DNA of 64,000 nt from an uncultured Lachnospiraceae bacterium (lineage in GTDB: Bacteria; Bacillota; Clostridia; Lachnospirales; Lachnospiraceae). Positions 15,408-38,277 of the stretch are shown in pieces (position 1 is the first letter of the stretch; every line of letters begins with the position of its first letter). Both the position numbers and the translations under genes were made by a program. Below the pieces are notes generated by a model. The model saw nothing but the letters and a program-made list of their open reading frames with translations, had not been told where the DNA came from and ran no database searches. The stretch covers positions 179,634 to 243,633 of the forward strand of contig CACYKH010000003.1 in NCBI GenBank assembly GCA_902774915.1, in the 5' to 3' direction.

Positions 15408-16358
15408 TTAACCAATCACTTCAAGTAATTTATTAATATCCTCAACTGTTTCTACACCATATACTGGAATGTCTGGTGTTGTCTTCTGCACAAATTTTGA
15501 GAGTGTTTTTCCTGGGCCAATTTCTACGAATGCTTCAACTCCCATATCAGCCATAGCCTTGATAGAATCATCAAAGTAAACTGACTTCTGTACCTGCTTT
15601 TCAAGAAGTGCTGGAATTGTTTCATCAGCTGTCTTCTCTCTTCCGATGCAGTTGAAGATTACTGGGATGTTCATATCTCCAAAGTTTTCGCTCTGGAATC
15701 TCTCTGCGAGTGCATCTCCAGCTGGCTTCATAAGTGATGTATGGAACGGTCCGCTTACCTTAACTGGAAGGCATCTCTTTGCGCCCATCTCTTTAAGAAC
15801 TTCCGCTGCCATATCTACTGCTTCAGCATCACCAGATACTGTAATCTGTCCAGGACAGTTGAAGTTTGCTGGCTCTGCAATGAGATCTGACTTTCCAGCT
15901 GCCTCAAGCTCCGCCTTAACCTTTTCACATCCTGCAAATACAGTTTCCTTATCAAGTCCAAGAACAGCTATCATCTTGCAGTCTCTTCCCTGAACAGCAG
16001 TCTGCATTGCATTTCCTCTAAACTGTACAAGAGGGATAACCTGCTCTTCTGTAAATACTCCTGCCTCATAAAGTGCACTGTACTCTCCAAGAGAAAGTCC
16101 TGCGGCACATACTGGCTCAACACCAAGGCTCTTCAGAACCTTTGTCATACCAACTGCAAATGCAACCATACAAGGCTGTGTATATTTTGTTTCATTAAGT
16201 GTTTCTGCTGGTCCCTCGAAGCAAACCTTCTTAAGATCAAAATCAACACCTGTTACATTATCAAATGTCTCTTTAAACTCAGGATATTTCTCATAGAGGT
16301 CGAGGCCCATGCCCACCTTCTGAGAACCCTGTCCAGCATAAATAAAACCAATTTTCAT
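15408..16358 (-). CDS. fabD: Malonyl-CoA:ACP transacylase FabD
   Basis: Transfers malonyl from CoA to ACP. The 316 aa open with IGFIYAGQGSQKVGMG and carry the nucleophile serine in GLSLGEYSALY (most FabDs have GHSLGE; Leu here is a tolerated variant, to my knowledge common in clostridia) and the PFHTSLM His motif. ATG 16358 is preceded by AGGAGG; the frame is open further upstream to 16406 only because it runs through a repeat element, whose codons should not be counted as protein. Confidence 0.95.
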   Translation of the reverse strand: MKIGFIYAGQGSQKVGMGLDLYEKYPEFKETFDNVTGVDFDLKKVCFEGPAETLNETKYTQPCMVAFAVGMTKVLKSLGVEPVCAAGLSLGEYSALYEAGVFTEEQVIPLVQFRGNAMQTAVQGRDCKMIAVLGLDKETVFAGCEKVKAELEAAGKSDLIAEPANFNCPGQITVSGDAEAVDMAAEVLKEMGAKRCLPVKVSGPFHTSLMKPAGDALAERFQSENFGDMNIPVIFNCIGREKTADETIPALLEKQVQKSVYFDDSIKAMADMGVEAFVEIGPGKTLSKFVQKTTPDIPVYGVETVEDINKLLEVIG

Positions 16359-16373
16359 CTCATTCCTCCTAAA

Positions 16374-16426
16374 TAAGTCAACGGGACCTGACCCCATTGA
16401 CTCCAAGATCTGTCCCTAGTGACTTA
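16374..16426 (-). repeat. Interspersed repeat copy A (between fabK and fabD)
   Basis: A 53-bp element bounded by TAAGTCA / TGACTTA with inner GGGAC / GTCCC complements. It matches copy B at 45392-45443 at 46 of 52 positions, the last 29 being identical. Its first three minus-strand bases are the fabK stop codon TAA. Confidence 0.85.
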
Positions 16427-29254: not shown

Positions 29255-29277
29255 AACTTCTACCTCACATTTGTTCT

Positions 29278-31007: not shown

Positions 31008-32933
31008 TTATCCCTGTAATTCGTCCCACTCAGTATAGAGCTCTTCCAGTTTTATCTCCGCAACTTCCTTCTTTTCTGATAGTTCAAGCAGGAGCTCAAC
31101 ATTTGTTCCATTTGCCGGATCATTAATCTGAGTATCGATTTCTGAAAGCTCAGCTTCAGTCTGTTCTATAGCTTTTTCAACACGCTTGATGGCATTTTCG
31201 CGTTTACGCTGTTCGGCATAAGAGGCTTTCTTCTCTTCGTATTCCAAACGGCCAGCAGACTTCGTTTTACCATCAGATTCTGTTTCAGTATTCTCGACTG
31301 CCACATCGCTATGCTGAAGATTAAAGAGTTCATCTCTCTTCTCTTCAAAATAATCATAGTTTCCTTTGTAGTTTGTCAGAACCTTTTCACGTAGTTCAAG
31401 AATCCTCGTAGCTGTCTTGTTTATAAAGTATCTATCGTGACTAACATATAGCACGGTTCCTGTATAATCCTTAAGAGCATCCTCCAGGATTTCCTTTGAA
31501 GGAATGTCCAGATGGTTGGTAGGCTCATCAAGGATCAGGAAATTGGCTGGTGAAAGCATAAGCTTTGCAAGAGAAAGCCTACCCCTTTCACCTCCGGATA
31601 GATCGCCGATGGTCTTGAATACATCTTCTCCTGTAAAGAGAAATGCGGCCAGGACGTTTCTTATTCTTGTATTATTCATATCCGGGAAGGAATCAGACAT
31701 CTCGTCAAATATGGTCTTGCCCGTATCCAGATCATGGTGCTCCTGATCAAAATATCCAACTCTTACCTTTGCACCAAGTGCCACATTACCAACATCTTTG
31801 GAAAGCTTGCGTGCAAGAATTTTGAGGATTGTGGTTTTTCCTGTTCCATTACCTCCGATCAGTGCCACATGCTCTCCGCGCTTAATATCTATATCAAGAT
31901 TTTCAAACAGCTGGTTATCACCATAAGCTTTTGCAAGGCCTTCAACCATGAGTACATCTTCGCCTGATTCACATACAGGTTCCAGTTTAAGTCTCATATC
32001 AGTTTGAACTTCCGTTGGTTTATCAAGTCTGTCAATCTTATCCAGCTTTTTCTCACGACTCTCAGCCCTCTTAATAGACTTCTCACGATTGAACTGCTTA
32101 AGCTTTGTTATAACAGCCTCTTCATGAGCAATCTCAGCCTGCTGCTTTATATAAGCATTCATTTCGGCCTGTCTGCGTTTCGCCTTCTCTTCTCTGTAAT
32201 AAGAATAGCTTCCGTTATAAACCTGGGAAACACCCTGATCTATTTCAATGATCTTATTAGTTATCTTATCTATAAAATATCTGTCATGGCTTACAACAAT
32301 AACAGCTCCGGGATAAGAAGAAAGATATCCTTCCAGCCATTTTGTGGACTCCATATCCAGATGGTTTGTTGGCTCATCAAGGATTACTATATCAGGATGA
32401 CTGAGAAGCAGGCGGCCTAATGCCACTCTCATCTTCTGTCCTCCAGAAAGACTTGCTATTGGTCTATCATAATCCTCTTTAGTAAATCCAAGACCCGCAA
32501 TAACTCCCGTAATCTCACTTTCATATGCGTAACCATTTTCTCTATCGTACTGTGTGGAAAGTCGATTATATGCTTCAAGGATTGGAGCAAGCTCCTGCTC
32601 ATTCTTACCCTCCATCTCCTTCTCAAGCTCACGGATTCTTTTTTCCATTTCGAGAATATATTTCTTTGCTTCCTGCATGGCTGAATAGATGGTATTATCC
32701 AGTTCAGTATCCTGATTCTGAGAGAGGTAACCCAGCCTCACATCACGGGCCATTACCACATTACCACTGTCAGCCTCATATTCTCCCAATATAACGCGAA
32801 GAAGTGTGGTCTTGCCGGCACCATTTATGCCGACTATTCCACACTTATCATTTTTCTCAATATGAAAATTAACATTCTTCAGAACCTGCGTATCCGCAAA
32901 GCTCTTAGCCACATTTTGACAAGCCAGTATCAT
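31008..32933 (-). CDS. ABC-F family ATPase
   Basis: A soluble 641-aa protein with two ABC domains and no membrane part: Walker A motifs GINGAGKTT and GGNGTGKTT, signatures SLSGGQKMRVAL and LSGGERGRLSL, an inter-domain linker of charged helices, and a C-terminal coiled-coil (EKKASYAEQRKREN onward). ABC-F proteins act on the ribosome E-site, some giving antibiotic resistance. Its start overlaps the histidine kinase stop by 4 bases (ATGA), so it belongs to the regulator/exporter set. Both YdiF/Uup housekeeping and resistance roles are possible. Confidence 0.9.
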   Translation of the reverse strand: MILACQNVAKSFADTQVLKNVNFHIEKNDKCGIVGINGAGKTTLLRVILGEYEADSGNVVMARDVRLGYLSQNQDTELDNTIYSAMQEAKKYILEMEKRIRELEKEMEGKNEQELAPILEAYNRLSTQYDRENGYAYESEITGVIAGLGFTKEDYDRPIASLSGGQKMRVALGRLLLSHPDIVILDEPTNHLDMESTKWLEGYLSSYPGAVIVVSHDRYFIDKITNKIIEIDQGVSQVYNGSYSYYREEKAKRRQAEMNAYIKQQAEIAHEEAVITKLKQFNREKSIKRAESREKKLDKIDRLDKPTEVQTDMRLKLEPVCESGEDVLMVEGLAKAYGDNQLFENLDIDIKRGEHVALIGGNGTGKTTILKILARKLSKDVGNVALGAKVRVGYFDQEHHDLDTGKTIFDEMSDSFPDMNNTRIRNVLAAFLFTGEDVFKTIGDLSGGERGRLSLAKLMLSPANFLILDEPTNHLDIPSKEILEDALKDYTGTVLYVSHDRYFINKTATRILELREKVLTNYKGNYDYFEEKRDELFNLQHSDVAVENTETESDGKTKSAGRLEYEEKKASYAEQRKRENAIKRVEKAIEQTEAELSEIDTQINDPANGTNVELLLELSEKKEVAEIKLEELYTEWDELQG

Positions 32934-34099
32934 TCATCTGTTTCCTTTAAATATATTATTACTTCAAGGCCCGGATCCCTGTTATAAAGCTTCAGACTTC
33001 CATCCATTCTTCCTACCAGTTCGTTCACAATATAAAGTCCAAGTCCTGAGCCATTTTCGTCACCAACATTCTTTCCTCTGTAGAACTTTCCAGTAATAAA
33101 TGGCATCTCCTCATCTGGTATTCCAGGACCAAAATCTCTGAAATGAAGTTTAATTCCATCAGTGTTTTCCAAACTGATCTCAACCTTGGTTTTTGCATAC
33201 TTCTCGGAGTTACTCTTTAAGTTCTCTATTATCTGAAGCAGTCTCTTCCTATCCGCATTTACCAGAATGGCTTTTCTATCTTCATCTGATTCAGGAAGGA
33301 TAATATCCACTTCATCTTCACTTACAAAGAGTCCTCTTACATCCTTATCAATGAACTCGATTATATCAAAGCTCTCCTTATTTACGTCAAGCTTATTCAT
33401 TTCTGAAATAGAATGGATGAAAAGATCATTTGTCAGCTGGGAAACCTCATCACATTTCTCCATAAGAACTGTCAGGTACTTTTGCCTCTTCTCCGGAGTT
33501 GAATCCATATTAGCTTCAAAAGCTTCAGCATATGCTCTTATTGAAGCCATAGGAGTTTTTATATCATGAGAAAGAGTTGCTATGACAGTCTTATTGTTCT
33601 CGATTGCATTTTTCTCTGCAGTACGGGATTTGATTATCTCCTTACGCATATTATCGAACGCCCAGGTAAAATCACCAAAATAATTGCCCTTACCCATCTT
33701 AAGAGATACATCCAAATTACCTTTGGATATCTCGGTGGCATATTCCTTTAATTCATCGAACGGCTTAAGAATACGGACGTAGATAAAAACAAGTAGGGAA
33801 AGGATCATTATGATACAAAAGAGCATCATAGCCCATACACACAGTACTTCCTTCTGGATGATTGCATATGTAATCTCCTCATCCTTGGAACTGATATTAT
33901 CGACTGCATCAAGCGCTCCATCAGTATCGCCGAAAAGAATAAGCTGCTGGAGTTCATTTTCCGCAACCACTCTGTCATTTCGAAGCTGCTCTACTTCCTT
34001 ATTGCTTGAGAAAAGGACCATCATTATTGCAAATGCAAATGCAGCCAGAATCAAAATATATATTAAAGATATATAAACTATTTTTTTCTTCATCTTCAT
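32930..34099 (-). CDS. Sensor histidine kinase
   Basis: 389 aa: transmembrane helix (7-29), short extracellular region (about 30-88), second helix (about 89-110), HAMP, then a HisKA domain with the phospho-acceptor His in TLSHDIKTPMAS and an HATPase with N box LKSNSEKYA, DFGPGIP and GSGLGLYI. It is all intact. The sensor loop of about 60 residues is short, consistent with sensing at the membrane or through the neighbouring exporter. It sits 4 bases after the response regulator gene. Confidence 0.93.
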   Translation of the reverse strand: MKMKKKIVYISLIYILILAAFAFAIMMVLFSSNKEVEQLRNDRVVAENELQQLILFGDTDGALDAVDNISSKDEEITYAIIQKEVLCVWAMMLFCIIMILSLLVFIYVRILKPFDELKEYATEISKGNLDVSLKMGKGNYFGDFTWAFDNMRKEIIKSRTAEKNAIENNKTVIATLSHDIKTPMASIRAYAEAFEANMDSTPEKRQKYLTVLMEKCDEVSQLTNDLFIHSISEMNKLDVNKESFDIIEFIDKDVRGLFVSEDEVDIILPESDEDRKAILVNADRKRLLQIIENLKSNSEKYAKTKVEISLENTDGIKLHFRDFGPGIPDEEMPFITGKFYRGKNVGDENGSGLGLYIVNELVGRMDGSLKLYNRDPGLEVIIYLKETDE

Positions 34100-34103
34100 C
34101 CAA

Positions 34104-34778
34104 TCACTTATTCAAAATATATCCAACTTTAAATACTGTTTTGATATGCTGTGGTTTTGAAGGATCATCCTCCAGCTTTTCGCGGAGCCATCTGATATGT
34201 ACTGTCAGGGTTGATGCATCCACCTCGCTGAACGCGCCCCACACCTCCGAAATGAGCTTATCCTTTTCAACAGCAGTATCCATATGTTTACACAGATAAG
34301 CCAAAAGGTCAAATTCTTTTAGAGAAAGATTTACCACTTTGCCAGACTTTGTAACTGTACGGGATGTAAGATTAACCTCCACATCACCGAATGTTACGGT
34401 CTCCTCTTCCTCAAAGCCATAGGTTCTTCTTATGAGTGCATTTACACGCACCAGCAGTTCCTTCATAGAATAAGGCTTAGGAAGATAATCATCGCCGCCC
34501 ATCTCAAAGCCTGCCACTCTGTCATCCACACTGGTTCTTGCACTGGCAAAAATAACAGGCACGGTAGAGACCTTGCGCAGCTCCTGACAAACCTCAAAGC
34601 CTTCGCCATCCGGCAGATTGATATCCAAAAGTATCAGATCGAACTTTCCATCTGTCAGAACCTCGTAAGCTTCATCCACGCTAAAAGCCTGCTCAACCTC
34701 GTATTCATATGTCTCAAGCATCTCCCTTGTAATATCCGAGAGCGCCCTATCATCATCAATTATAAGAATCTTCCTCAT
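34104..34778 (-). CDS. OmpR-family response regulator
   Basis: 224 aa: receiver domain with phospho-acceptor Asp in LILLDINLPDG and the conserved Lys in LPKPYSMKELL, then a winged-helix DNA-binding domain (ALIRRTYGFEE through VGYILNK). Partner of the adjacent kinase; likely target is the ABC exporter operon upstream. The start ATG and its RBS GGAGGG lie inside a partial copy of the interspersed repeat (34776-34797), a striking overlap. Confidence 0.94.
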   Translation of the reverse strand: MRKILIIDDDRALSDITREMLETYEYEVEQAFSVDEAYEVLTDGKFDLILLDINLPDGEGFEVCQELRKVSTVPVIFASARTSVDDRVAGFEMGGDDYLPKPYSMKELLVRVNALIRRTYGFEEEETVTFGDVEVNLTSRTVTKSGKVVNLSLKEFDLLAYLCKHMDTAVEKDKLISEVWGAFSEVDASTLTVHIRWLREKLEDDPSKPQHIKTVFKVGYILNK

Positions 34779-34797
34779 CTGTCCCTCCAGTGACTTA
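34776..34797 (-). repeat. Interspersed repeat copy C carrying the RBS and start codon of the response regulator
   Basis: The minus-strand stretch TAAGTCACTGG-AGGGACAGATG equals the core of copies A and B with two added bases, which create GGAGGG. The last three bases are the ATG of the response regulator. Confidence 0.6.
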
Positions 34798-34820
34798 TTA
34801 TATCATAGAAAAACGTAGAT

Positions 34821-35034
34821 GCCGAGCAGGTCTGACAAACTCTTTTCGAGACCGTCGCGGGTCTCGGTGCTTAGCGATTCACGAGCCTGAAAGGCGACGT
34901 GAGAGCTTAGCAAGCCGAAGCTTCTTTTCGAAGAAAGGAAGCCGGCGTCCGCTAGGAGGAGAATGGTCCGGTGGACCATTCTCGCAGAGAGCGGAAGCGA
35001 TGTCGAGAAAAAAGTTGTGTCAGACCTACTCGGC
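34821..35034. repeat. Large structured GC-rich element between the ABC permease and response regulator
   Basis: Terminal complements of 17 bp with one mismatch (34821-34837, 35018-35034) extend further imperfectly inward. Inside are hairpins: CGAGACC/GGTCTCG (34847-34853, 34860-34866); TGCTTAGC/GCTTAGCA (34868-34911, imperfect); GCCG..GCTTC / GAAGC..CGGC (34914-34945); and a perfect 11-bp stem GAGAATGGTCC/GGACCATTCTC (34959-34969, 34973-34983) inside CCGCT/AGCGG. GC content is well above the surroundings. Overlapping ORFs on both strands are by-products. It is either a MITE-like insertion or a structured RNA. Confidence 0.7.
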
Positions 35035-35047
35035 CATAACATTTTTC

Positions 35048-37456
35048 CTATTCAGTTATAAGTTCTCTGGCGCTGACCTTTTTAACCTTGCGAGAGGCAA
35101 TATATCCAAATACAAAGTAAACTACCAAGAATACAAGGATAGGCTTCATGAAGAACCAGAAATCGAAGTCCAGGACTACGTGAGGTATTCCGAACATAGT
35201 AAATACTGAGGACATCATCTTCTCAGAGAAGAGTCTGGCTATTATAATGCCGAAGACTGAACTGATGAGACACAGTATTGTGAATCTGGTTGCAAATTGT
35301 CTACGGATACTTCCAACAGAGAATCCGATAGCTCTATAGATACCCAGATCTGTACGTTCCTGAATAAACGCTTTGTTGCATACCATGAGGACAGTAACTA
35401 TTGCGAAGATAAAGGACAGTGTATAAATAAGAATTCTCGAACCATCTGCTGCGGTATAGAAATTGTTTACGAACATCGCCTTATCTTTCTCAAAGTCGCT
35501 GAATTTAATTTCTACTTCATCGCCATATTTCTCTTTAACTTCCTCCTCAATCTTCTTGCCATTACTTGAATCTTCCAGGATTATACCGTGCATACTTAAC
35601 TGATTGTATTTGTATTTCTTGGTTTTATCCTTCTTCAGTCTGTCAAGCCCTTCAAGAGACATAGAAATGCATTTTCCTGTATCATTCATAGTCTGGAAAA
35701 TGCCTACTACAACATAGTCTTCGGACAGTTCATCACGACCGATAGAAACTGTATCGCCTACATTTATCTTCAAAAGATCACTTATCTGCTCAGTGATAAC
35801 TATCTCATTATCATACTTGATATCTCTGCCCTTATAGACAGTAGACAGCTGGTCTGGGAATGCTTTAACTATGCAGCTTACATTTTCGCCCTCTATGGAC
35901 ATATAAATATGTGACCAGTACTGTTTACTTTTGATATTAGAATACTTCTCAACGATCTCTTCAATATCCTCTGTTGAATATTTAGGTTCATTCACATTGA
36001 ATGCATATTCAATCTCATAGAATGGCTCACCCATAGATTCAAGAGCTTCTCTAGATTGAATGAAACCACCCATAAGCTCTACAGTTATGATAGTGAAAAT
36101 AAGAAGTGATGTTACCACTACGATACTTATATAACGTTTTGGTGCAGAAGTGATCTGGCGAAGTCCGAGCCAGAAGCCCTGCCCCTTCTTATAAATAGGT
36201 GAATTTAAAATGCTATCGAAATAGAAATCATCTCTACCCTTTGTTATGGCTTTAACAGGGGAAGTCTTCGATACTTTTCGAGTAAAGAACCAAACAAAGA
36301 TAACTGTTACAATAAACAGGGCAAGCATGAACACTGCTGCTTCAAGCACAGGCACCTGCTTAGCTGGAACGATTGATGTCAGTTCAAAGAATACTGAGCT
36401 CATTACTCTTTCCAGTGGAATAGAAATGATGACTCCTAGTATAACTCCTACCAGCTCAACAAACAGATACTGAATCACATAGATTGTGCGGATTTTCTTA
36501 TTCGTGAAGCCTTGGCTCTTAAGTATACCGAGGTTTACATAATCTATTTCCATCTCAGTGCTAATATTATGACCAGCTACGATCAGGAATATAGCCAGAA
36601 GGAGCACTGCAAATCCAGTTATTACAGCTAAGATTATATTTATAAAAATTCCTGTATAGTGTTCAGAAGTCTCTTTTGATAGTGACGCGATTGATAAATC
36701 ATCAAACTTGGTAGCCAGATTCAATTCTCTAAGAAAAATATTTGATGACTCATCCGCTTTTTCGTTCGGGAATACATAGGCGACTTTTCCGTAAAAGGAA
36801 TTACTATTATCCTGAAGTTCATCTGACTTTTCCTTTACGACAGAATATATTTCATTAAAATCCTCTTCACTTAAAAATACTGTTTTCCATCCCATAATGG
36901 ACGAACCCATATATGCATCCTGTACGAAACCTTTAACAGTAAACTCCTTGGTTTCATCCATGAAGTCTATAGATATCTTTCCTCCTACCTCAGCACCCAG
37001 GGTTCCATGTATTCCGTATGGTAAATAGATTTCCCCCTTCTTAAGACCAAGCGAAGCATGTTCATTTGTGCCCGGCATAATAAGATCAGAACAATCGCTA
37101 TTCATAATAGGTAATGTATCCAGCATCTTAGTTACAAAATAGCCATTACCTTCCTCTTCTTTTCCTACAGTAGCATTCCTTCCAACCAGAGCATCGTAAG
37201 ACTCTACATGATCTACTGTATCCTCTGCTTCTACCTTCTTTTCAAGTTCATCGGAATATTTATTATTATCAAAATATGCGAGTATTACGCCTTTATCTTC
37301 TATCTTAAAGGCCTCTTCCATTGCTGTCTCATAATTCTTTCTGACACCGATCATAGTTATTACGCTGACTACGATGAACATAGTAAGAAGCATGAAACTC
37401 AGCATGGTACCTTTTCTATTTCTAATACTTGCCTTAACAAGTGAAATTGTTTCCAT
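35048..37456 (-). CDS. FtsX-type ABC transporter permease (MacB/Bce-like)
   Basis: An 802-aa membrane protein: N-terminal helix (about 18-40), an extracellular domain of some 220 residues, a first FtsX block of three helices (about 268-400), a second helix near 450, another extracellular domain, and a second FtsX block at the C-terminus (about 680-795). Such permeases with a MacB/LolD-type ATPase expel or disarm peptides at the membrane, often reporting to a two-component system. The ATPase lies 11 bases upstream, the TCS downstream. AGGAGG before ATG 37456. Confidence 0.88.
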   Translation of the reverse strand: METISLVKASIRNRKGTMLSFMLLTMFIVVSVITMIGVRKNYETAMEEAFKIEDKGVILAYFDNNKYSDELEKKVEAEDTVDHVESYDALVGRNATVGKEEEGNGYFVTKMLDTLPIMNSDCSDLIMPGTNEHASLGLKKGEIYLPYGIHGTLGAEVGGKISIDFMDETKEFTVKGFVQDAYMGSSIMGWKTVFLSEEDFNEIYSVVKEKSDELQDNSNSFYGKVAYVFPNEKADESSNIFLRELNLATKFDDLSIASLSKETSEHYTGIFINIILAVITGFAVLLLAIFLIVAGHNISTEMEIDYVNLGILKSQGFTNKKIRTIYVIQYLFVELVGVILGVIISIPLERVMSSVFFELTSIVPAKQVPVLEAAVFMLALFIVTVIFVWFFTRKVSKTSPVKAITKGRDDFYFDSILNSPIYKKGQGFWLGLRQITSAPKRYISIVVVTSLLIFTIITVELMGGFIQSREALESMGEPFYEIEYAFNVNEPKYSTEDIEEIVEKYSNIKSKQYWSHIYMSIEGENVSCIVKAFPDQLSTVYKGRDIKYDNEIVITEQISDLLKINVGDTVSIGRDELSEDYVVVGIFQTMNDTGKCISMSLEGLDRLKKDKTKKYKYNQLSMHGIILEDSSNGKKIEEEVKEKYGDEVEIKFSDFEKDKAMFVNNFYTAADGSRILIYTLSFIFAIVTVLMVCNKAFIQERTDLGIYRAIGFSVGSIRRQFATRFTILCLISSVFGIIIARLFSEKMMSSVFTMFGIPHVVLDFDFWFFMKPILVFLVVYFVFGYIASRKVKKVSARELITE

Positions 37457-37467
37457 TTCCTTCCTCC

Positions 37468-38277
37468 TTACCAGTCAAGGGACTCAAGCCATGCATTAAC
37501 CTGCGCCTCGCGAGATTTGTTGCTCTGAAGCAGCTCTCCATCACTATTCTTCTCACCATATCTGGTAAGCTCGAGTTCGCCAACAATGTTTCCATCCTCG
37601 AGGTAGAGAAGTCTGTTACCTCTGATAGCAGACTTTATATCATGAGTAACCATCACTATACTTTGACCTTCATTATTTATGTCAGTCAGAAGGTCCAGAA
37701 CCGCTTTAGTATTCTTTTTATTAAGCGCTCCTGTTGGCTCATCAGCAAAAAGAATTGTAGGATCATTTATAACCGCTCTTGCAATGGCGCATCTTTGCTG
37801 CTCACCTCCAGATACTCTGGAAGGAAGATGATTCTTAACATCACTTAGGCTCATTCTATCCAGAAGTTCCTCAGCCTTTTTCTTTGTATCTGCCGAACTT
37901 CTATTCTTGTCCAGATAACCAGTAACTGCCACATTTTCAAGAAGAGTCAGGTTGCTTACCAGATGCATCTGTTGGAAGACGAATCCAAAGTCTTCGCTTC
38001 TAAGCTTAGACATCTGTCTTTCCTTAGTCTGAGTGATGTCTATCTCTTTTCCACCCTCTCTCTTCTTGCTTGTAAAGAGAACCTGTCCTGCAGTCGCTTT
38101 GTCCATTCCAGAAAGCGCATAAAGAAGTGTTGACTTACCAGAACCTGAAGAACCCATGATAACTGTGAAGTCATCCTTGTATATATCCAGGTTAACATTA
38201 GTAAGAACAGATGTTATTTCTCCATTGTTTGCAAATGATTTCTGCACATTTTTTGCTGATAAGATTATTTCTTTCAT
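37468..38277 (-). CDS. ABC transporter ATP-binding protein (MacB/LolD type)
   Basis: A 269-aa ATPase with Walker A GSSGSGKST, signature VSGGEQQRCAIARA, Walker B ILFADEPTG and switch VTHD. It extends about 35 residues beyond the usual 230. The long basic/Ser-rich tail ends AWLESLDW. It pairs with the FtsX permease. First gene of the exporter operon; the leader holds an imperfect TTATTC...GAATAA inverted repeat near 38315-38335 that could be a response-regulator site. Confidence 0.92.
   Translation of the reverse strand: MKEIILSAKNVQKSFANNGEITSVLTNVNLDIYKDDFTVIMGSSGSGKSTLLYALSGMDKATAGQVLFTSKKREGGKEIDITQTKERQMSKLRSEDFGFVFQQMHLVSNLTLLENVAVTGYLDKNRSSADTKKKAEELLDRMSLSDVKNHLPSRVSGGEQQRCAIARAVINDPTILFADEPTGALNKKNTKAVLDLLTDINNEGQSIVMVTHDIKSAIRGNRLLYLEDGNIVGELELTRYGEKNSDGELLQSNKSREAQVNAWLESLDW

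Follow-up and report, generated by a model that had tools for sequence, protein, structure and literature searches.

A structured intergenic element of an uncultured Lachnospiraceae bacterium as a probable copy of a dispersed mobile repeat family with an RNA-level fold

The window analysed here, a stretch of 64,000 nucleotides (nt) from the genome of an uncultured Lachnospiraceae bacterium (contig CACYKH010000003.1; the source genome, called G000 below, comprises 2.61 Mb in 67 contigs), contains a G+C-rich structured element at positions 34821-35034. The stop codon of an ATP-binding cassette (ABC) exporter permease gene flanks it on one side and a response regulator gene on the other, both on the - strand, with the exporter ATPase and a histidine kinase encoded beyond them (Table 1). 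A preliminary description, made from the sequence alone, had proposed that it might be a miniature inverted-repeat transposable element (MITE), or else a regulatory RNA separating the expression of exporter and regulator. These two possibilities each hold in part and are not mutually exclusive. In our view, the element probably belongs to a family of dispersed mobile repeats that carry an RNA-level fold. The family occurs in many copies, differs in presence and absence between related species and has a MITE and an ISLre2 transposon as carriers in relatives, and the fold of the repeat covaries between copies.

The sequence of the element, its terminal complements and its deviating base composition (G+C of 56% vs 39.7% for the window) are as initially described. 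Folded as RNA, its + strand reaches -116.3 kcal/mol (z -10.1) and its - strand -115.1 kcal/mol (z -11.0), and 0 of 200 shuffles were as low on either strand, which answers the concern that the structure might not go beyond chance. The statement that this is the most structured DNA in the window also held, as the lowest energy among 1204 overlapping 214-nt segments (step 53) is that of the segment at 34822 (-112.5). The next non-overlapping segment (-85.9 at 29257) lies at the site of a Clostridiales-1 RNA (RF01699; 29282-29449, - strand, 114.3 bits), in the stretch of the window that ranks second by structure. The 17-bp terminal arms noted previously are real but were understated: the actual arms (34808-34846 and 35009-35047) extend over 39 nt, are 74% complementary and are placed as terminal inverted repeats (TIRs). 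The perfect 11-bp stem of the preliminary description is likewise present.

The search for further copies that had been suggested was productive, since at least seven were found in G000 itself (substantial matches in a DNA search) and others widely across the bacterial family. The aligned copies of G000 have a common core and outer arms individual to each copy; hairpin P4 is missing in one of them (C7), and two others (C4 and C2) lack the greater share of the core's 3′ part. A DNA search of 61 genomes found the repeat in 21, the source genome included, all of one genus. For the wider distribution two covariance models (R1 and R2) were used, and the source genome was counted in each sample. Matches were obtained in 45 of 61 genomes of the genus and in 62 of 397 genomes of the family, representing 56 of 334 genera. 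The order sample gave matches in 5 of 295 genomes, the other four being from four other genera of the same family, and the class-wide sample in 4 of 391, all within this family; as 8 to 11 candidates per genome were scored in the order, family and class searches, these counts are lower bounds. Copy numbers can be considerable (38 in G003, 34 in G068, 55 in G539 and 60 in G448). Scanning one genome for each of 84,980 species with a pattern returned 85 stretches; among the 80 of these 85 that were listed, the records are of Lachnospiraceae, Eubacterium or Bacillota, and many come from the rumen. Viral contigs scanned with the exact pattern, and phages and plasmids searched with one 151-base query each, gave no match.

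At gathering score, Rfam recognised only the Clostridiales-1 RNA and a lysine riboswitch in the window and 14 further copy-bearing loci, neither of them at an element. With E values up to 10, two small nucleolar RNA matches, far below their gathering scores, appeared beside the element. Nor did a literature search of titles and the starts of abstracts reveal a description of the repeat. Judged by Rfam 15 and this literature search, the family is unlisted as a known RNA.

A secondary structure was written from 22 copies and comprises stem P1, a tandem G.A mismatch, an inner P1, P2, P6, P3, an optional P4 and P5 with a tetraloop. The family unit can be described as a structured RNA module of approximately 110-170 nt (P2, P6, P3, the optional P4, and P5 with its GNRA loop) that is closed by a long and variable P1. 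In a MAFFT alignment of the 22 copies, 92.3% of the cells pair and double changes occur in 21 of 35 pairs; covariation amounts to 0.261, compared with 0.116 in shuffles and at most 0.112 when partners were slid, and four of five measures exceed all 500 shuffles. Model R1 aligned 110 matches in 94 loci, with a score of 95.1 bits for the window copy. In the 105 distinct rows that resulted, which were fitted to the model and include orthologues so that their cells are not independent, 93.6% of the cells pair, 31 of 35 pairs show double changes, covariation is 0.420 (0.139 in shuffles, at most 0.073 with slid partners) and five of five measures exceed chance. Every one of the 102 P5 tetraloops is of the GNRA type, in six versions, and the remaining 3 of the 105 rows have a loop of another kind. 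The arms of P1 pair with their own partners (mean score 46.5, n 104) far better than with arms of other copies (18.6, n 309). A different 5′ stem, hairpin A (GAGACC/GGTCTC), was preferred by RNAalifold; it was set aside because a double change occurs in one of its five pairs, in one sequence, as compared with four of six P2 pairs, the two having been weighed by pair counts.

The window copy follows this plan with some individual features (Table 1). The extra 11-bp hairpin in its P6-P2 joining loop is absent from the other six aligned copies of G000 and thus looks like an addition to the window copy. It has two bases in common with the possible 3′ side of P2, so that P2 may be weakened here; the minimum-energy fold of the + strand pairs this region in another way. 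A nested mobile repeat was considered as the origin of the extra hairpin and dropped; the genome has one other similar site, which resembles a terminator hairpin.

Table 1. Coordinates of the element and of its surroundings in the window.
Feature	Position	Strand	Remark
Histidine kinase (HisKA, HATPase_c)	32930..34099	-	
Response regulator (Response_reg, Trans_reg_C)	34104..34778	-	downstream neighbour
Promoter-like site before the response regulator	34797..34825	-	consensus match only
P1 stem, 5′ arm (outer inverted repeat)	34808..34847	+	17-bp end of the preliminary description starts at 34821
GA of tandem G.A mismatch, then GAC of inner P1, 5′ side	34848..34852	+	
P2 stem, 5′ side (GCGGG)	34857..34861	+	covaries with CCCGC in other copies
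P6 stem, 5′ side (CGG)	34865..34867	+	
P3 hairpin (TGCTTAGCGATTCACGAG..CGTGAGAGCTTAGCA)	34868..34912	+	most conserved part
P4 hairpin	34913..34947	+	optional, exchangeable module; absent in C7 copy, different in other species
P6 stem, 3′ side (CCG)	34949..34951	+	
Extra perfect 11-bp hairpin	34960..34982	+	in P6-P2 joining loop
Possible P2 stem, 3′ side (CTCGC)	34981..34985	+	one G.U with GCGGG; read from sequence
P5 hairpin	34989..35001	+	GGAA (GNRA) tetraloop at 34993-34996
Inner P1, 3′ side (GTC), and GA of tandem mismatch	35002..35006	+	
P1 stem, 3′ arm	35007..35047	+	ends adjoining permease stop codon
ABC exporter permease (FtsX/MacB type)	35048..37456	-	upstream neighbour
ABC exporter ATPase	37468..38277	-	

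Mobility of the family is directly visible in relatives. Two copies of genome G071 (L206 and L207) are 99.3% identical over 267 bp and have different flanks; by eye, two further loci of this genome (L208 and L209) are composite units with ends like those of other pairs, in which the first RNA module has seemingly been replaced by another palindrome. Among 47 loci of G539, 17 units could be delimited by the TIR CACGGTAAACGCA, present at both ends within 3 mismatches and exact at both in 8 units; in three of the longest units, one TIR has 3 mismatches and may be due to chance. Ten of the 17 measure 268-271 bp, corresponding to a 269-bp MITE, and 10-bp target duplications (up to 1 mismatch allowed) flank 7 of the 17. 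Some units of G539 have lost the core. These units thus combine TIRs with short length and many copies that lack a transposase gene, as is characteristic of MITEs; among the approximately 100 listed of the 112 TIR matches of this genome, no transposase was identified between two of them, although no systematic look was made.

The repeat is also associated with larger transposons. Genome G002 has six copies of equal score, of which the five read are 99.9-100% identical including the surrounding DNA. In the one unit that was read whole, the copy occupies the space between the stop codon of a UPF0236/ISLre2 transposase gene and the right end of the common DNA. The sequence TATGACATG is found on both sides of this unit, whose right end was located; allowing up to 2 mismatches, no inverted repeat was found on the left. 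In G009 (L029) a copy adjoins an IS30-family transposase, and a copy with the same flank is present at another locus (L057); the L029 copy may move together with the IS30 element and is a candidate for a third kind of carriage. The idea of a transposase between a '-' and a '+' copy in G024 was discarded, the region holding, by eye, chromosomal genes (parA/parB-like and arginyl-tRNA-synthetase-like).

Comparison of orthologous loci, where gene names were read by eye, shows gain or loss and rearrangement between sister species. The empty-site comparison proposed in the preliminary description revealed a difference at dapA-dapB, which is filled in G000 and empty in the four sister genomes G012, G034, G066 and G083. 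Together with the TIRs and 10-bp duplications of G539 and the near-identical pair of G071, this establishes mobility for the relatives. The dapA-dapB site of G000 lies downstream of a lysine riboswitch (L007, 258-436). Conversely, another site is filled in G034, G066 and G083 and empty in G000, at 16358-16424 of the window, where a different, palindrome-like sequence is found. Both empty sites carry other repeat-like DNA, so that exact target duplications are unreadable. In the vicinity of rpsO, G000 and G034 have a common site, and their copies are distinguished by paired changes in P1 and P3 as well as by the P4 module. At the window locus, G066 carries the core the other way round from G000, G012 and G083, and the breakpoints fall within an identical stretch of the arms; at panB-panC, the core of G034 has the opposite orientation to that of G012 and G083. 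The differing outer stems of the first seven copies had prompted the idea of a cassette inserted into pre-existing hairpins, such as terminators. This idea was rejected, as by eye the outer stems have a loose consensus and change in pairs at orthologous loci.

If selection acts on an RNA, G.U pairs will be tolerated and A.C mismatches will not. We therefore counted the P1 mismatches flanked by Watson-Crick pairs on the element-sense strand of 104 copies, 6 of the 110 having been dropped due to short or identical arms. There were 83 G.U, 38 A.C and 137 other mismatches (sign-flip p 0.0003), with an arm composition that is nearly even. In 39 copies of G539 that were delimited from the 47 loci read, the counts were 18 G.U, 2 A.C and 11 others; as distinct position-and-pair types they fall to 6, 2 and 9, so the ratio of 18 to 2 is inflated by shared descent. 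For copies between co-directional genes, G.U and A.C numbered 29 and 13 in sense copies. Selection for RNA pairing on one strand, the + strand in the window, is strongly supported by these data. The element-sense strand seems to be the relevant one, though the neighbouring genes of the window copy lie on the - strand.

The gene setting was analysed at 94 loci with simple calls of open reading frames. Most single copies for which both neighbours were called (52 of 65) lie between co-directional genes, 28 in sense and 24 in antisense orientation. Where two copies occur together, the order is '-' then '+' in 14 of 14 loci, to which one triple ('-++') can be added; these loci come from few genomes and are not independent. 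Eleven further close pairs with the same order were seen among the matches listed for G448. The order is no strict rule, since G484 has two '-' copies 180 bases apart (contig C23, 21391-21674) and G658 has four '-' copies within 7 kb (contig C9, 21474-28420).

A number of observations weigh against an RNA-level interpretation, or against a role of the RNA in host transcripts. Besides the dependence among model-aligned rows and the shared descent of the G539 copies mentioned above, the number of further pair types in the MAFFT alignment is not above shuffles (63 of 500 reach its value), the outermost pair of P5 fails in 68 of 98 cells of the 105-row alignment, and RNAalifold alone did not propose P2. 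GNRA-like loops are stable in single-stranded DNA too. Antisense copies between co-directional genes show 21 G.U and 16 A.C, the counts on the operon-sense strand (45 vs 34, p 0.26) do not differ significantly, and the excess in the core stems is small (51 vs 40). The near equality of sense and antisense copies does not favour a host-transcript role and is the main point against action in cis, and at two loci sister species hold the core in opposite orientations. Finally, part of the P1 covariation could arise without selection if one arm of the palindrome is copied onto its partner. Double changes in recent G539 copies raised the question of whether such copying is its sole cause; this was rejected, the intermediates being G.U more often than A.C.

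Several of these points would suit a purely DNA-level element, in which the palindromes of a MITE serve transposition or form cruciforms and arms are copied onto each other during replication. Such an element would be expected to have the TIRs and target duplications observed, to flip its core between the arms, to show no orientation bias and to undergo fast paired changes in recent copies. A DNA process should, however, make no distinction between G.T and A.C mismatches, which conflicts with the G.U excess seen on one strand; moreover, the GNRA loops are maintained while their N and R positions vary, and covariation is also found in P2 and P6, at a distance from the outer arms. We regard this explanation as improbable. 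For the regulatory RNA of the preliminary description, it is the RNA-level constraint that is supported, by virtue of covariation, GNRA loops and the G.U excess.

Given an RNA fold, its beneficiary has to be considered. Our tentative reading is that the RNA carried by transposons acts in cis and makes insertions tolerable. A transcript running through a sense copy would form a compact folded domain, which may guard message ends or limit polarity between neighbouring genes; an insertion made tolerable in this way would help whichever transposon carries the module. Antisense copies, that of the window included, would then represent a silent or off state, and inversion between the P1 arms could turn the core round. 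The main rival is an RNA that acts for the transposon itself, through control of transposase expression or binding of a transposon protein, and is passed between transposons. The position of the module between transposase stop codon and right end in the ISLre2 unit of G002, and beside the IS30 transposase at L029, agrees with this proposal. It has to accommodate two transposases of different families, with the module sense to one and antisense to the other, and copies of the source genome recognised by eye (window, panB-panC, rpsO, lon and dapA-dapB) that have no transposase beside them; we consider it rather unlikely. Extending the cis-acting reading, one may think of a transposon-companion RNA: one module unlisted in Rfam would have been taken up by an ISLre2 element, probably by an IS30 element and by a MITE of unknown parent across dozens of genera of one bacterial family, owing to a fold that would render insertions into operons harmless in cis, and divergent pairs would provide one sense copy whichever strand is transcribed. 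This broader scenario is possible but doubtful. MITEs of bacteria tend to be viewed as DNA debris. The mobile repeat described here has an RNA fold whose pairing stays constrained in copies from many genera and from more than one type of transposon. Should the RNA be functional, this would be a selfish DNA element that brings along a folded RNA to pay for its insertion. For Lachnospiraceae of gut and rumen, the structure also provides a key by which this repeat family can be annotated.

Among known systems, modular or palindromic mobile repeats that fold as RNA in bacterial intergenic DNA include BOX, ERIC, RUP and NEMIS, which the present family resembles in these respects. REPIN/RAYT systems also consist of inverted pairs of hairpin repeats spread through the genome. 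They differ in that terminal repeats with 10-bp target duplications, as found in G539, do not fit a Y1 transposase. The bcr repeats (bcr1 and others) of the Bacillus cereus group are described as many-copy, MITE-like intergenic repeats with predicted RNA structure (PMC3446304, PMC2267715), approximately half of whose copies were found to be expressed, in untranslated regions, in operon gaps or alone, with only bcr3 associated with a change in mRNA decay (PMC3446304). The likeness lies in copy number, MITE-like intergenic nature and predicted RNA structure. The differences, compared by description only, are the other bacterial group, arms that here vary between copies yet stay paired with covarying pairs, and a module that occurs within an ISLre2 element and within a MITE, next to IS30, and also as divergent pairs. 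RAGATH-18 provides another case of a structured RNA tied to a transposon: this RNA, common in Firmicutes, is reported to accompany the TnpB of IS607 in 64% of copies and no other insertion sequence family (PMC11061315). The transposons here are of the ISLre2 and IS30 types, and the element has no match to an Rfam family.

We also considered a regulatory RNA specific to the exporter-regulator locus. The element is present here in G000, G012 (as two contig pieces), G066 and G083, the contig of G034 ending at this point, and the outer end of the element contributes the first hexamer to a promoter-like pair before the regulator gene (TCGGCA at 34825-34820 and TATAAT at 34802-34797 of the - strand; spacing 17, 10 of 12 consensus matches). 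Of 40 matches, 20 were fetched; none of the 15 more distant relatives among them has a copy in the 430 nt that follow the permease, and in about 12 of these 15 the regulator comes after the permease as in the window (by eye). The copy is antisense in the window and sense in G066, and similar copies are found at other loci beside other genes (by eye). A locus-specific RNA is therefore very improbable, and a dedicated role in separating exporter from regulator expression is not supported. The proposed placement inside an exporter-regulator operon is correct as to the position between the permease and regulator genes; the operon itself is made doubtful by the promoter-like pair.

By consensus match only, promoter-like sites around the element number 3, vs 0.7 in shuffles. 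No intrinsic terminator, meaning a G+C-rich hairpin followed by a T run, was found on either strand of 34700-35150. The outer end of the element could alter expression of the response regulator, independently of any RNA function. A TATAAT is present by eye at an approximately equal place in several relatives without the element (L173, L175 and L178). A short repeat, GTCATTCTGA(A/G)CGAA, which is intergenic in the sister species, occurs both before the response regulator gene and at dapA-dapB (L229-L236, L169).
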